DNA of 56,806 nucleotides. Source: Flavobacteriales bacterium (GTDB taxonomy: Bacteria; Bacteroidota; Bacteroidia; Flavobacteriales; Flavobacteriaceae). The translations under genes were made by a program, and so were the position numbers. The stretch spans positions 1 through 56,806 of the forward strand of contig JAMOMQ010000013.1 in NCBI GenBank assembly GCA_027066995.1, given 5' to 3'. The notes below the pieces were generated by a model, which did not search any database, was not told the DNA's origin, and saw nothing but the letters and a program-made list of their open reading frames with translations. Positions 43,403 through 48,669 of the stretch are shown here, one piece after another (within the stretch, counting starts at the first letter, position 1; each line of letters opens with the position of its first letter).

Positions 43403-44071
43403 TTAAATGCTGTAATTTCTGGCACCGAAAATGGCTGAGCCCACCCGAATGAGATTACTGCCGTGTGTTATGGCAATTTTATAATCATGACTCATTCCCA
43501 TTGATAGATATTCCATTTCTTTTAATTGCGACTTGGATTTTATATACAGGCGATGCAAATAAGCAAATTCGGAAGCAATTTGTATGGTATCATCTGTATT
43601 GGTTGCCATTCCCATCAGTCCTTTTATACGGACATTTGGAAATTCACCGGCTTGGTATTGAGTAATTATAGTGTGGAGGGTTTCTTCATCCATACCGAAC
43701 TTGGTGTCTTCTTTGGCAATTTTTATTTGCAATAACACTTGTAATTGTCGTTGGTGTTTGGCAGCTTGTTTTTCTATTTCTTTGAGTAGTTTCAGGTTGT
43801 CCACACTATGAATTAAAAAGACAAAAGGCGCTATATATTTGACTTTATTGCGCTGTAAATGACCAATCATGTGCCAGCGGATATCTTGGGGCAATTGTTC
43901 ATGTTTGGCCACTAATTCTTGTACTTTGTTTTCGCCAAAATCCCGTTGATCACAGGCATAGGCTGACATGATATCAGAATTGGGTTTGGTTTTGGATACT
44001 GCTACCAAAAGAACATTTTCGGGTGTTTCGTTTTTTATTTTTTTTAAGTTATCACATATAGTCTGCTTCAT
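43403..44071 (-). CDS. YggS/PLPBP-family pyridoxal-phosphate homeostasis protein
   Basis: A 222-aa single-domain alanine-racemase-like TIM barrel. The PLP lysine is Lys27 in LVAVSKTKP. Other marks: FGENKVQELVAKHEQLPQDIRWHMIGHLQRNK and LSMGMSHDYKIAITHGSNLIRVGSAIFGARN. It buffers PLP and affects amino-acid metabolism, without known catalysis. It starts 5 bp after the second DUF1015 gene, tying it to the serC-serA-DUF1015 transcript, where SerC is also PLP-dependent. Confidence 0.95.
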   Translation of the reverse strand: MKQTICDNLKKIKNETPENVLLVAVSKTKPNSDIMSAYACDQRDFGENKVQELVAKHEQLPQDIRWHMIGHLQRNKVKYIAPFVFLIHSVDNLKLLKEIEKQAAKHQRQLQVLLQIKIAKEDTKFGMDEETLHTIITQYQAGEFPNVRIKGLMGMATNTDDTIQIASEFAYLHRLYIKSKSQLKEMEYLSMGMSHDYKIAITHGSNLIRVGSAIFGARNYSI

Positions 44072-44076
44072 TTTTT

Positions 44077-45291
44077 CTATATTTCGTAAATAAACAAGCC
44101 TTTTAAAGGACGTGGTTCGAGGTATAAACTTTTATAAGGAATGGCTATGCCGAGATCAATGGTTTGTTTGATTTCATCAAAATCCATCGGCCGCACAATA
44201 AAACCGAATTTACAGTTGCCTTTATTCAGTTGATTTTCGACGCATTTGGTGCTGCGTTTACCGTCACAAAATTTTAGTGATTCGTTGCTTAACAAAGTAT
44301 GATTGTCCGAAATTTGAGGTAAAATATAGCGTTCGAAAATAACCGAATCGGGGAGTTGTTTGTCGATATGTGATTTTGGTTTTAGTTTGTATTTGCCTTG
44401 TAATGAATAAAATAGAATTTCGCCTTTTTGGGGAGGGTCATAATTTGTAACCACTTCTATTTCAAAATGTTGTTTAAGGTTTTGATAAACTTCTTCAAAG
44501 GTTTTGGAAAAATCCGGCGAAACCCCTTTTTTGTATTCGTGTATTTTGACTTGGTTTTGACTAATCATAAAAGCCGGAAAGTAATTAAAAGCTTCTTGAC
44601 CGGAAAAAAGATTGTCCGGTTCATTAATTTTTTTCTGGTATATAGCATGTAAAGCTTCAAAATAGTTGTTATCGTCTATGATGTCAAATTGACCGGCTTG
44701 TAAATAGGCATCTTTGATCAATTGAATATCTTCAGGATCCAATACTTGCCAAACTTCGTGAATAAATCCGTTGTTACGGGTAAATTCGTATAAGGGTATT
44801 TTTGATTTATATTTGTTAATAATTTGATTGATAGCTTCAATATTTTCATGAACTACCGTAATAGGTTTGGCTATGAATCCTGTGTGTTCAATTAAATCTA
44901 TTTTTTTTGCAACCATAGCCGGAACCGATTTTTCTATTTTATGAATGAGACCTTCTACAAAATCGGTGTGGGGAATTTGTCCCACAATACCTGCAAATTG
45001 TTTTTTTTCATTATCGATAATACTATAGATATAAAAGCCCGGATTTTCACCGGTTTTGATAATATTGTTTTTTTTAAATTTTAAGTATTGTCGTTTGATG
45101 GCTTTGTATTTTTTTAAGCCTTGTAAACGTTTGATATAGGGCTTGTAAAAAATATTATTAAAAGAATAAGGATTGCGGCGTATTATACTATTGATATCGC
45201 TCGAACTCAATTCGCAATCATCTTCCGTAGGAAATATACAAGCTTTATTGCGTAACGGATGGGTTAATATTGCAGGATAAAAATGTGCCAT
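44077..45291 (-). CDS. Divergent DUF1015 paralogue lacking the signature motif
   Basis: A 404-aa protein co-linear with the DUF1015 protein at 45388-46638. Shared blocks are FAGIVGQIPHTDFVEGLI, SGQEAFNYFPAF, VKIHEYKKG and the final YLEPRPLKGLFIYEI. The signature ADGHHR is replaced by residues 206-210 DDNNY (IIDDNNYFEALHAIY), and the KHELTRP block by HKIEKSVP, so the putative catalytic or ligand site is gone. Start: ATG 45291 is preferred; an in-frame ATG at 45318 would put the start inside the inverted repeat 45306-45373. A product of duplication and decay, possibly a regulatory partner of the active copy. Not a frameshifted pseudogene, since the reading frame is intact. Confidence 0.75.
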   Translation of the reverse strand: MAHFYPAILTHPLRNKACIFPTEDDCELSSSDINSIIRRNPYSFNNIFYKPYIKRLQGLKKYKAIKRQYLKFKKNNIIKTGENPGFYIYSIIDNEKKQFAGIVGQIPHTDFVEGLIHKIEKSVPAMVAKKIDLIEHTGFIAKPITVVHENIEAINQIINKYKSKIPLYEFTRNNGFIHEVWQVLDPEDIQLIKDAYLQAGQFDIIDDNNYFEALHAIYQKKINEPDNLFSGQEAFNYFPAFMISQNQVKIHEYKKGVSPDFSKTFEEVYQNLKQHFEIEVVTNYDPPQKGEILFYSLQGKYKLKPKSHIDKQLPDSVIFERYILPQISDNHTLLSNESLKFCDGKRSTKCVENQLNKGNCKFGFIVRPMDFDEIKQTIDLGIAIPYKSLYLEPRPLKGLFIYEI

Positions 45292-45305
45292 AACTGTATT
45301 TTTAA

Positions 45306-45373
45306 GAAACTGTCTCAAAAGTATTTCTCACTAGGTTTGCAATGAAAGATATTCACTCTTTTGAGACAGTTTC
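45306..45373. repeat. Perfect 16-bp inverted repeat, MITE-like
   Basis: Arms GAAACTGTCTCAAAAG (45306-45321) and CTTTTGAGACAGTTTC (45358-45373) flank 36 bp. The arm sequence resembles the termini of IS1182/IS5-like elements in Bacteroidota, but no transposase is present. It lies in the 96-bp gap between the two DUF1015 genes and could also fold in RNA. Confidence 0.7.
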
Positions 45374-45387
45374 ATGATCAATTTTAA

Positions 45388-46638
45388 TTAAGTTAAGTCG
45401 TGAATAACCAGCCCACTGCGCAACTTGGGTTCAAACCAGGTTGTTTTGGGTGGCATAATATTACCGGTGTCTGCAATGTTGATTAACTGTTTCATAGACA
45501 CGGGATACAAGGCAAATGCTACAGCATAATCACCTGAGTTTACTTTATCTTCTAATGCTTTTAGACCGCGAATACCTCCGACAAAATCAATACGTTTGCT
45601 TGTGCGCAGGTCTTTAATATCCAATACGGGTTCTAAAATATGTTTGGACAGTACGCTGACATCGAGTTGATCAATAGGATCGTTGTCGTTATAGGTGCCG
45701 GGTTTGGCGGTTAACTTATACCAGTCGCCGTCCAAATACATAGAAAATTCGTGCAATTTTTGCGGTTTATAATTTTCGGGACCTATCTTTTGTATATCAA
45801 AACTCCGGCTGATTCTTTCCAAAAATTCTTCTTTAGTCAAGCCGTTCAAATCTTTAACAACTCTATTATAGTCAATAATTTTGAGCTGGTTGTCAGGAAA
45901 ATGCACGGCCATAAAATAATTGTAAGCTTCTTGTCCGGTATGATTGGGATTTTGTGCTTTTTTTTCTTGCATTATACGAGCTGCCGCGGCAGTTCTGTGA
46001 TGACCGTCAGCCACATAGGTATAGGGGACTTTTTCGGCAAACAAGCGTTCTAATTGACGGTTGTCTTTTTCGTCTTCCACCACCCAAAAATGATGTCCGA
46101 AACCGTCTTCGGCCGTAAAGTCGTAAATAGGTTCATTATTATTGACTACTTTTTCTACAATAGCATCAATTTCAGGTACCGCCTTGTAAGAAAAGAATAC
46201 CGGTTCTATATTGGCATTGAGATAACGGGTTAATACCATACGGTCTTCTTCCTTGTCGGGGCGGGTTAATTCATGTTTTTTGATAATGCCGTCAAAATAA
46301 TCTTGCGCAGCAGCAGCACCCACAATACCATATTGGGTGCGTCCGTCCATGGTTTGGGCATAGATGTAATAATGCGGTTGTTCGTCTTGCACCAGCCATT
46401 TATTAGCTTTGAATTTATTATAATTTTCAACCGCTTTATTATAAACCGCTTCCGAATGGATATCGGTGCCTTCAGGCAAATCTATTTCGGCACGGGTAAT
46501 ATGTAGTAATGAGTATTCTTTGCCTTTAGCCATTTCGGCTGCTTCTTCAGAGTTCATTACGTCGTAAGGTAAAGCCGACACATCTTTGGCTATGTCTTTG
46601 GGAGGTCTGTATCCTCTAAATGGTTTTATTGTTGCCAT
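45388..46638 (-). CDS. DUF1015-family protein (ParB/Srx-superfamily-like)
   Basis: A 416-aa protein with the full DUF1015 pattern: KPFRGYRPP and VSALPYDVMNSEEAAE at the N-terminus, KHELTRPDKEEDR (121-133), ADGHHRTAAAA (210-220), TGQEAYNYFMAV and FVGGIRGLKAL. The DGHHR motif resembles that of the ParB/sulfiredoxin fold, to which an archaeal free-serine kinase (SerK) belongs. A kinase- or phosphatase-type reaction on serine metabolites is therefore inferred, supported by position directly after serC-serA. It starts 18 bp after serA. A phosphoserine phosphatase (serB) is not seen locally, so this protein may fill a gap in that pathway. Confidence 0.85.
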   Translation of the reverse strand: MATIKPFRGYRPPKDIAKDVSALPYDVMNSEEAAEMAKGKEYSLLHITRAEIDLPEGTDIHSEAVYNKAVENYNKFKANKWLVQDEQPHYYIYAQTMDGRTQYGIVGAAAAQDYFDGIIKKHELTRPDKEEDRMVLTRYLNANIEPVFFSYKAVPEIDAIVEKVVNNNEPIYDFTAEDGFGHHFWVVEDEKDNRQLERLFAEKVPYTYVADGHHRTAAAARIMQEKKAQNPNHTGQEAYNYFMAVHFPDNQLKIIDYNRVVKDLNGLTKEEFLERISRSFDIQKIGPENYKPQKLHEFSMYLDGDWYKLTAKPGTYNDNDPIDQLDVSVLSKHILEPVLDIKDLRTSKRIDFVGGIRGLKALEDKVNSGDYAVAFALYPVSMKQLINIADTGNIMPPKTTWFEPKLRSGLVIHDLT

Positions 46639-46655: not shown

Positions 46656-47576
46656 TTAATTTAATTTGTAAGTTTGATCATTGTTTTCAAAGAAATTGAC
46701 TATTTGATTAACCGCTGCCACACCGGCATTGATATTGGCTTCGGCGGTTTGTGCACCCATTTTTTTCGGTGTAAAGAAAATACGATCGGCAAACCGGGTT
46801 TCAAATTCGTCACGTTTATCAGGAGCTATATCCGAAATGTATTTAAAGTCGGGGCGTTCTGCCATCAATTGTAACAAACCGTCTTCATCAATAATTTCTT
46901 TCCGGGCTGTATTGATTAAAACCGCATTATCGGGCATTTGTTTTAATAATTCGTAATTAATGCTTTTGATAGTTTGTGGTGTTGCCGGAATATGTAATGA
47001 AACATATTGGGCGTTTTTATACATATCTTCAACGTTTTCATAGTCTTTGATACCGTCACGTTCTACAATTTCCGATGATACATAAGGATCGTGAGCGACC
47101 ACATTCATATCAAAACCTTTGGCAATGCGTGCCACGTTTTTGCCTACATTGCCATAGGCATGAATACCGATGGTTTTACCTTTGAGTTCGGTGCCGGGCG
47201 TGCCGTTAAATTGGTTGCGTGCCATGAGCACCATCATGCCCAATACCAATTCTGCCACGGCATTGGCATTTTGACCGGGAGTATTCATCACCACGGTTTT
47301 GTTATTAGTGGCAGCTTTTAAATCTATATTGTCGTAACCGGCACCGGCACGAACCACAATTTTAAGATTGGGCGCCTGTTCAAATACTTCCGCATCTATT
47401 TTGTCACTGCGGACAATTAAGGCGTCTACATTTTTAACGGCTTCTATCAAGGCTTTTTTATCCGGATATTTTTCTAATAATATCATTTTATAACCGGCTT
47501 TGTCCAACAAATTTTTCATTTGGTTGATAGCCGCGGGGGCAAAAGGTTTAACTGTTGCTATCAGTACTTTTTTCAT
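46656..47576 (-). CDS. serA: D-3-phosphoglycerate dehydrogenase-like (Bacteroidota type)
   Basis: A 306-aa D-2-hydroxyacid dehydrogenase for the first step of serine synthesis. Substrate-binding VVRAGAGYDNIDL and catalytic Arg in NTARKEIIDE are present. Two canonical sites differ. The Rossmann glycine motif reads GIHAYGNVG rather than G-x-G-x2-G with two hydrophobics, and the catalytic His of 'PHxGA' is replaced by Lys (TPKKMGAQTAEAN). I recall both changes as typical of the Bacteroidota SerA lineage. No ACT regulatory domain is present. Lies 20 bp after serC. Confidence 0.88.
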   Translation of the reverse strand: MKKVLIATVKPFAPAAINQMKNLLDKAGYKMILLEKYPDKKALIEAVKNVDALIVRSDKIDAEVFEQAPNLKIVVRAGAGYDNIDLKAATNNKTVVMNTPGQNANAVAELVLGMMVLMARNQFNGTPGTELKGKTIGIHAYGNVGKNVARIAKGFDMNVVAHDPYVSSEIVERDGIKDYENVEDMYKNAQYVSLHIPATPQTIKSINYELLKQMPDNAVLINTARKEIIDEDGLLQLMAERPDFKYISDIAPDKRDEFETRFADRIFFTPKKMGAQTAEANINAGVAAVNQIVNFFENNDQTYKLN

Positions 47577-47595: not shown

Positions 47596-48669
47596 TTAAG
47601 ATACTTGTTTTTCAAAATCTTGCATGGCTTTTACTAAAACTTCAACACTTTCTTTAGGCAAGGCATTGTAAGTAGAGGCTCTAAAACCACCGACCGAACG
47701 GTGTCCTTTGATACCGACTATGCCACGTTGGGCGGCAAAATCCAGAAAGTCTTGTTCGTATTGTTTATAATTGTCATTCATAACAAAGGTGATATTCATT
47801 AGAGAACGATCTGCTTCGTTTGGTACCGCAGCCGAAAATAATTTATTACGATCGATTTCATCGTATAAAATTTTGGCTTTTTCTTCATTCCGTTTTTGAG
47901 CTGCCGCTACACCACCGTTATCTTTAAGCCATTTGAGTGTTTGCAAAGCTGAGAAAACCGCTAAAACCGGAGGTGTGTTAAACATTGAGCCTTTGTCAAT
48001 ATGCGTTTTATAATTAAGCATGGTGGGAATATGACGGTTTACTTTGCCGAGTATATCATTTTTGATAATCACAAAAGTGGCACCGGCCGGACCGAGATTT
48101 TTTTGTGCTCCACCATAAATCAAGGCATATTTTGATACATCAACAGGACGGCTAAAAATATCGGATGACATATCTGCAATCAAGGGAACCGGACTGTCAA
48201 TATCTTCTTTGATTTCTGTACCGGCAATAGTGTTGTTGGTCGTGATATGAAAATAATCGGCATCGGTGGGAATGTTGTAATTTTTCGGAATATAATTGTA
48301 GCCTTTGTCTTTGCTGCTGGCTACTACGGTTACGTCACCAAAACCCTTGGCTTCTTTGATGGCTTTGCTGCTCCAAGCACCGGTGTCGAGATAGGCAGCT
48401 TTTTTATTAAGCAAGTTGAAAGGAATCATGGCAAATTGAGTACTGGCGCCTCCTTGTAAAAATAACACTGAATAGTCGTCGGGAATGTTGAGTAATTCCT
48501 TAAACAATGCTTGTGCTTGATTCATCACATCAACAAACTCTTTGCTGCGATGCGAAACTTCCAAAACGGATAAACCGGTGCCGGCAAAATCTTTAATGCC
48601 TTCAATGGTTTTTTCAATGGTATATTGTGGCAGAATGCTTGGTCCTGCATAAAAATTGTGCTTTTTCAT
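47596..48669 (-). CDS. serC: Phosphoserine aminotransferase
   Basis: A 357-aa class-V PLP enzyme converting 3-phosphohydroxypyruvate to phosphoserine. Family blocks: [18 protein letters not shown] at the start, [21 protein letters not shown], the PLP-lysine region [21 protein letters not shown], and [18 protein letters not shown]. The start is placed at ATG 48669 because SerC begins just before NFxAGP; a 15-residue in-frame extension to 48714 is rejected. It is first in the minus-strand run serC-serA-DUF1015-DUF1015'-yggS. Confidence 0.95.

Follow-up and report, generated by a model that had tools for sequence, protein, structure and literature searches.

The window analyzed here, positions 1 to 56,806 of contig JAMOMQ010000013.1 of a Flavobacteriales bacterium (GenBank assembly GCA_027066995.1), carries on its minus strand two neighboring genes of the DUF1015 family (PF06245, which we take to be the same as COG4198). 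The upstream copy, which bears the motif ADGHHR, is called CAN, and the downstream divergent copy is called DIV. In the reading that we favor, with moderate confidence, catalysis passed to a homologue acquired from outside, and the resident copy, though disabled, was retained for a second function. DIV stands where relatives have their single copy, belongs to the lineage of such copies, has largely lost the motif and is constrained; most of its conserved cysteines are older than the loss of GHH. The original prediction, two neighboring DUF1015 genes of which one lacks ADGHHR, is borne out by the open reading frames (ORFs) and the PF06245 scores. The active/inactive contrast that it drew between them is well supported at the level of sequence, the motif being kept in CAN and largely lost in a constrained DIV; the duplication that it implied does not hold.

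Both proteins pass the Pfam gathering cut-off of PF06245 (25.8 bits; scores in Table 1), and neither has a match in NCBIfam up to an E-value of 1. BLASTP aligns the two over 353 columns with 27% identity (E 9e-40) and through their C-termini, which agrees with the predicted co-linearity except for the first ~70 residues, which lie outside the alignment. According to the ORF list of the window, the order along the minus strand is serC, serA, CAN, DIV, and yggS. The names serC, serA, yggS, RluD, and MurI are presumed from homology and general knowledge; the name DUF1015 is that of Pfam.

The Divergent Copy Occupies the Resident Locus

DIV and CAN were looked for in 60 relatives, including 12 genomes of the same genus as the window (g1). 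A full-length DIV with 62–74% identity is found in 10 of these 12; in G003 only a 38-residue piece is seen at the point where the contig ends, and in G007 the contig ends inside CAN, hence DIV is out of view. CAN is 82–89% identical in same-genus genomes where it is seen. Adjacent CAN and DIV genes also occur in a second genus, g253 (genomes G268 and G451); its genome G452 shows only a fragment at a contig end. All nine genomes of another genus (g227) have one DUF1015 match each, and no second copy was detected in them. DUF1015 itself is widespread: a sample of 118 genomes from across the phylum contains it in 105, the window genome being the only one with two matches, and 202 of 299 genomes in a sample of the family have a match. 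Several of the latter have two matches; among the matches listed, those in G019, G045, G046, G048, and G049 represent a single gene split in two.

In 39 of 44 relatives from the family and order, yggS directly follows the single-copy DUF1015 gene on the same strand. DIV is likewise directly upstream of yggS in all 12 loci where both are seen, and the g227 single copy is next to yggS in eight of nine genomes, the ninth locus stretch ending 529 bases on. DIV sits where the single copy of relatives sits, and it is therefore the resident gene by position. Phylogeny leads to the same lineage: DIV groups with the g227 single copies with a support of 99 in the Shimodaira–Hasegawa-like approximate likelihood ratio test (13 DIV and 9 g227 rows), a grouping first seen with one g227 row and then with nine. 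That CAN was duplicated in tandem and one of the copies then diverged, an explanation with physical adjacency alone on its side, is thus very improbable; it was rejected on the yggS synteny, on this tree, and on the approximately unbiased (AU) test, in which a clade of DIV and CAN is rejected (p 0.023). The word "tandem" in the original prediction is accordingly right for the position of the two genes and wrong for their origin, synteny and trees placing them in different lineages.

As a separate matter, the DUF1015-yggS neighborhood in those 39 relatives suggests a functional link with the YggS protein.

Origin of the ADGHHR-bearing Copy

The best segments of CAN share 58–72% identity with 80 loci, most of which bear the name of Bacteroidales or of a family in this order, and 33–42% with ten members of its own family and order that were compared. 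In the tree, CAN and 30 sampled Bacteroidales rows lie on one side of a branch with support of 100, and CAN is nested among these rows in smaller sets with support of 99. Judged from these sequences, nesting inside Bacteroidales is likely, not decisive. SerC gives 51 matches among the 80 mostly Bacteroidales loci, and the order SerC-SerA-DUF1015 of the present locus is found in 47 of the 80. A quick tree of SerC places the window genus among Bacteroidales, without significance. SerA and CAN share a strand and lie 0–34 bases apart in the 10 loci of relatives for which both could be measured. These results are best read as an import of CAN from Bacteroidales, which is strongly suggested, and the gene order suggests that serC, serA, and CAN came jointly.

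The presence of this cassette coincides with the loss of the motif. All nine g227 copies keep IADGHHR, and in the g227 genome G242 the sole SerC match is on a contig other than that of DUF1015, while all 13 copies beside CAN, or in CAN-bearing genera, have lost IADGHHR. The motif is intact and the cassette appears to be absent in g227, and the motif is lost and the cassette present in g1 and g253.

Four metagenome-assembled genomes titled Alphaproteobacteria (L090, L097, L099, and L116) have DUF1015 proteins 61–64% identical to CAN, the level of Bacteroidales copies; these are either a further transfer or mislabelled contigs.

Residues Lost, Kept, and Gained in DIV

Columns with an invariance of at least 97% among 136 copies bearing ADGHHR were taken as family-invariant, and 12 DIV copies were scored at the resulting 48 columns. 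CAN carries these invariant residues, which are a feature of the sampled family and no curated rule, and DIV does not: 20 columns, GHH included, are lost in all 12 copies, 11 are kept in all 12, and 17 are mixed. Because of these 20 losses, DIV is named here a divergent homologue rather than a functional DUF1015 enzyme. The residues kept throughout are Y93, G104, E123, F174, W185, D211, D326, G355, P379, P404, and G409. Those lost throughout include H122, T125, E145, G212, H213, H214, N258, R259, D343, R345, P397, T400, and K405 (as R); the T125 position is S in 11 of 12 copies. The alignment confirms the predicted replacement of ADGHHR by DDNNY in the downstream copy. More generally, the motif site reads D-D-N-[ND] in the 11 DIV copies of the window genus, ADNKSQ (DNKS) in G268, and LDNRNE (DNRN) in G451. 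The other predicted replacement, KHELTRP by HKIEKSVP, needs correction: the histidine is indeed lost in 12 of 12 copies, but K-H-E-L-T pairs with K-I-E-K-S, and the glutamate, E123, is kept in all 12. The g227 copy of G242 keeps most of the residues lost in DIV and is changed at E130, N143, N258, L325, R349, and M395.

DIV has also gained residues. Some lost positions hold new conserved residues, and K254, K255, P314, and R394 are new invariants in 13 of 13 copies, as are the cysteines Cys18, Cys26, Cys342, Cys350, and Cys360. These five cysteines are absent in the 44 relatives, in the 80 sequences of the Bacteroidales set and in 11 CAN rows, except Cys342 in ~2% of the 44. In g227 they occur, in the same order, in 9, 0, 6, 9, and 8 of nine copies. 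Most of the set is older than the loss of GHH, since it is already present in single-copy relatives with an intact motif; three of the five predate the loss of ADGHHR.

Two alternatives turn on these residues. DIV might be a pseudoenzyme subunit that binds and regulates CAN, as the original prediction proposed. A regulatory complex of this kind is possible, and it accords with the adjacency of CAN and DIV on one strand in 12 of 12 loci showing both (gap 11–327 bases), with the loss of GHH accompanying the presence of CAN in the genomes examined, and with the new conserved residues at lost positions. However, adjacency is expected anyway if the cassette merely landed at the resident locus, and three of the five cysteines predate the arrival of CAN, being present in single-copy relatives that have no partner gene; we regard the proposal as a minority view that deserves attention. 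Or DIV might still be an enzyme, with altered chemistry or substrate, working through E123, D211, and newly acquired lysine, arginine, and cysteine residues. The first two persist in 12 of 12 copies, and K254, K255, R394, and the five cysteines have become invariant, but GHH, R345, D343, and E145 are lost in all 12. Loss of these residues in the SerK/sulfiredoxin fold should cripple nucleotide-phosphate binding, and this alternative seems unlikely.

The N-terminal part of DIV is basic. The net charge of residues 1–83 is +8 to +12 in DIV, +12 to +15 in g227, and −1 to +10 in the 44 relatives, and a rank test on this charge takes related sequences as independent. Subtracting the charge of the remaining residues from that of residues 1–83 gives 17.5 for DIV, 12.8 for g227, and 13.8 for the relatives; because the g227 value does not exceed that of the relatives, the basic signal in g227 is not special to the N-terminal part.

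Selection on DIV

Pairwise ratios of nonsynonymous to synonymous substitution rates (dN/dS) within the genus were calculated by the method of Nei and Gojobori (NG86); they are rough, dS being near or over saturation (>1) in most pairs. The median dN/dS is 0.122 for DIV and 0.056 for CAN (55 pairs each), compared with 0.099 for YggS (66 pairs), 0.055 for SerC (45 pairs), and 0.140 for a PASTA protein (55 pairs) among the neighbors. DIV is under purifying selection and evolves like ordinary neighboring genes. A decaying relic, the least credible of the explanations, would be in line with the approximately twofold faster evolution of DIV (median dN 0.241 vs. 0.103 for CAN), but it was rejected on the dN/dS of 0.085–0.143 in the eight closest DIV pairs, on a frame open in all 13 full-length copies, as had been predicted for the downstream copy, and on the conserved blocks. 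Decay in relatives, named beforehand as evidence against the original prediction, was checked and is absent (median pairwise dN/dS 0.12). As in pseudoenzymes, catalytic residues are lost in DIV, and the predicted fold and purifying selection are kept.

Predicted Fold and Its Resemblance to Serine Kinases

A structure model of CAN has a mean predicted local distance difference test score (pLDDT) of 93.0 and a predicted template modeling score of 0.89. A Foldseek search with this model gave nine matches under E 0.001, and every one of them is SbnI, SerK, or 1vk1, the homologue of SerK in Pyrococcus. VIA-align gives Z 12.1–13.1 over 219–227 residues for SerK/1vk1 and Z 11.4–11.7 for SbnI; the next match of CAN is sulfiredoxin 3cyi with Z 5.6, followed by unrelated rows at Z ~2. 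The DIV model (pLDDT 87.2) behaves similarly, with Z 12.8–13.1 for SerK/1vk1, 11.5–11.7 for SbnI, and 5.4 for sulfiredoxin 6ky4, and the match to SerK/SbnI spans 210–227 residues for CAN and DIV together. Sulfiredoxin here stands for the ParB-CTPase/sulfiredoxin fold. In the CAN model, a strand at 207–211 ends at D211 and a helix starts from H213; phosphate-binding turns in this fold presumably have the same strand-turn-helix form. From chain order and general knowledge, we take E123 and GHHR to be the counterparts of SerK E30 and of the phosphate-binding turn. On the models, the fold of DUF1015 is a clear pointer to the family of free serine kinases. The original prediction described the function of the family as not firmly assigned; the papers found agree with this, and it has to be qualified by the fold.

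There are also differences from the known members. Against SerK (TK0378 of Thermococcus kodakarensis), the DUF1015 fold matches most of the SerK length with Z 12–13, and DUF1015 differs in having ~88 additional residues at the N-terminus and in its longer insertions. According to the available part of one report, SerK phosphorylates free serine with ADP to yield O-phosphoserine (PMC5120207), and another describes, in the part at hand, SbnI of Staphylococcus as a serine kinase and at the same time a heme-controlled DNA-binding transcription regulator (PMC7139808). SbnI, whose fold matches both models with Z 11.4–11.7, is a precedent for a ligand-controlled DNA-binding enzyme of this fold; it retains kinase activity, whereas DIV appears, from its sequence, to have lost the catalytic turn. 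In the literature searched, DUF1015 is mentioned without functional work in the portions accessible, and nothing was found for PF06245 or on a divergent second DUF1015 copy. A 2025 survey picked a "DU1015" (spelled so) fusion among 50 proteins for nucleotide-binding tests, and the accessible sections do not name this fusion among the nucleotide binders (PMC12704722).

A Proposed History of the Locus

These results can be arranged in the following order. The ancestor would have had one resident DUF1015 gene upstream of yggS, encoding a SerK-type phosphotransferase, and this resident copy would already have acquired cysteines that most of its relatives lack. Next, a serC-serA-DUF1015 set of Bacteroidales type would have landed directly upstream of it, and the imported CAN would have taken over the serine/phosphoserine chemistry. 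The resident DIV would have lost GHH of the presumed phosphate-binding turn and been retained by purifying selection for a second function that would require its cysteines and conserved surfaces; the likeliest candidate is the sensing or binding of a metal, of the redox state, or of serine or phosphoserine. The SerK-like chemistry of the DUF1015 copies is a step that we infer from the structure models.

Several points weigh against this history. DIV is on a long branch (3.06) and its residue composition is odd, and its placement outside g227 is unsure for these two reasons. The AU test does not reject a tree in which the 30 Bacteroidales rows form a group that leaves CAN out (p 0.076), nor does it reject a SerC clade of the window genus with its own family (p 0.446), and because of these two values co-transfer of the entire cassette is not proven. 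Apart from DIV itself, the alignment behind the DIV model contains nothing but canonical relatives, and the predicted fold therefore depends in part on these. Searches of the PDB sequences with DUF1015 queries gave no significant SerK match: P0002 had no match up to E 10, and A1 and P0001 hit only unrelated chains at E 0.8–1.8. Finally, the second function of DIV, including a putative metal site and binding of a ligand or DNA, is something we infer.

As a more speculative extension, the DUF1015 protein of this clade may have been a two-job protein like SbnI, combining a phosphotransferase with metal or redox sensing by cysteines and nucleic-acid contact through a basic N-terminus, which was split when the import took the chemistry, DIV becoming a dedicated sensor-regulator; we offer this as a tentative idea, rather doubtful at present. 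The chemistry passed to CAN would then be the phosphoserine-to-serine step in a genome without SerB.

Serine Pathway Context

The window genome (98% complete) has no match to TIGR00338 (SerB) at E 0.001, and in the HAD family that contains SerB (PF12710) it has one match at 20.9 bits, below the cut-off of 27; other phosphatase types, e.g., histidine phosphatases, were not searched. In comparison, PF12710 is over cut-off in 14 of 14 control genomes. Among 14 genomes tested, all of which have a SerC match, SerB (TIGR00338) is over cut-off in one, which is not the window genome. Because the window genome has no SerB-type phosphatase over cut-off, CAN may handle phosphoserine.

A hand-picked set of 40 genomes was drawn from the phylum sample, namely all 13 DUF1015-negative and 27 of the 105 DUF1015-positive ones. 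A strong SerC match is found in 22 of 27 positive vs. 5 of 13 negative genomes (Fisher p 0.011), seven of the 13 negatives belonging to one family and thus not being independent. By coordinates, DUF1015 and SerC are on one contig within ~6 kb in 14 of the 22 positive genomes with strong SerC. SerB is over cut-off in six of the 40 genomes; since four of these are among the 27 positive and two among the 13 negative ones, there is no simple mutual exclusion of DUF1015 and SerB. Genus g147 (G162, G355, G385, G396, and G412) is mixed in this respect: SerB is over cut-off in the two genomes that lack DUF1015, a further two contain both genes, and the fifth contains only DUF1015. The complete-looking genome G154 has SerC, no PF06245 match, and no SerB over cut-off, and it is a possible third solution for the serine step.

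A 2007 survey, in the part available, reports that five COG4198 genes, presumably from Firmicutes, are preceded by glycine riboswitches with a single aptamer (PMC2211319). Rfam at gathering thresholds finds nothing in the window, so no riboswitch is seen there. The linkage to SerC and the glycine riboswitches fit a role in serine metabolism, the reaction and its direction not being proven. In a gut survey, as far as the accessible text goes, 450 genomes lacking SerB are reported as Firmicutes, and this does not speak for a SerB gap in Bacteroidetes (PMC9026213).

Features of the Locus

The features are collected in Table 1. DIV starts almost certainly at the ATG at 45291 rather than at the TTG at 45318 that was first called, to judge from the sequences, because ten other copies of the genus begin at that Met and because the TTG lies inside a perfect inverted repeat between the two genes. 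The repeat folds at −27.6 kcal/mol (z −5.85). A mobile repeat was considered for it and rejected: the pair is unique, without further exact copies in this genome, and its 12-base core is absent from the other loci compared.

Table 1. Positions in the window of the two DUF1015 genes, their motifs, and adjoining features.
Feature	Position	Strand	Basis or remark
yggS, conserved neighbor marking the resident DUF1015 locus	43403..44071	-	Synteny; name presumed from general knowledge
DIV, divergent DUF1015 protein, 404 aa	44080..45291	-	PF06245 130.7 bits; start ATG 45291
DIV Cys342, Cys350, and Cys360 (C-x7-C-x9-C)	44212..44268	-	Cys in 13/13 DIV copies
DIV residues 206–210, DDNNY, replacing the DGHHR part of ADGHHR	44662..44676	-	Alignment
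DIV residues 118–122, KIEKS, replacing KHELT, glutamate retained	44926..44940	-	Alignment
DIV Cys18 and Cys26	45214..45240	-	Cys in 13/13 DIV copies
Perfect 16-bp inverted repeat between CAN and DIV	45306..45373		Arms 45306–45321 and 45358–45373
CAN, DUF1015 protein with ADGHHR, Bacteroidales type	45388..46638	-	PF06245 381.9 bits
CAN residues 210–215, ADGHHR	45994..46011	-	Sequence
CAN residues 121–127, KHELTRP	46258..46278	-	Sequence
serA-type dehydrogenase, upstream in the cassette	46656..47576	-	ORF list; name presumed from homology and general knowledge
serC, phosphoserine aminotransferase, likely ATG 48669	47596..48669	-	Name presumed from homology and general knowledge

Implications

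The guess of a duplicated gene of unknown function is replaced here by a history that can be traced, from an active-looking single copy (g227) through import to a disabled and constrained resident. DUF1015, present in most sampled genomes of the phylum, becomes connected with the serine pathway and with the fold of the serine kinases SerK and SbnI. The window genome, with no SerB-type phosphatase over cut-off, offers a simple test of DUF1015 as the missing phosphoserine-to-serine step, a gap that has been reported in other bacteria. If the proposed history is true, DIV would be a pseudoenzyme that arose through takeover by a foreign homologue and not through duplication, a less usual route.

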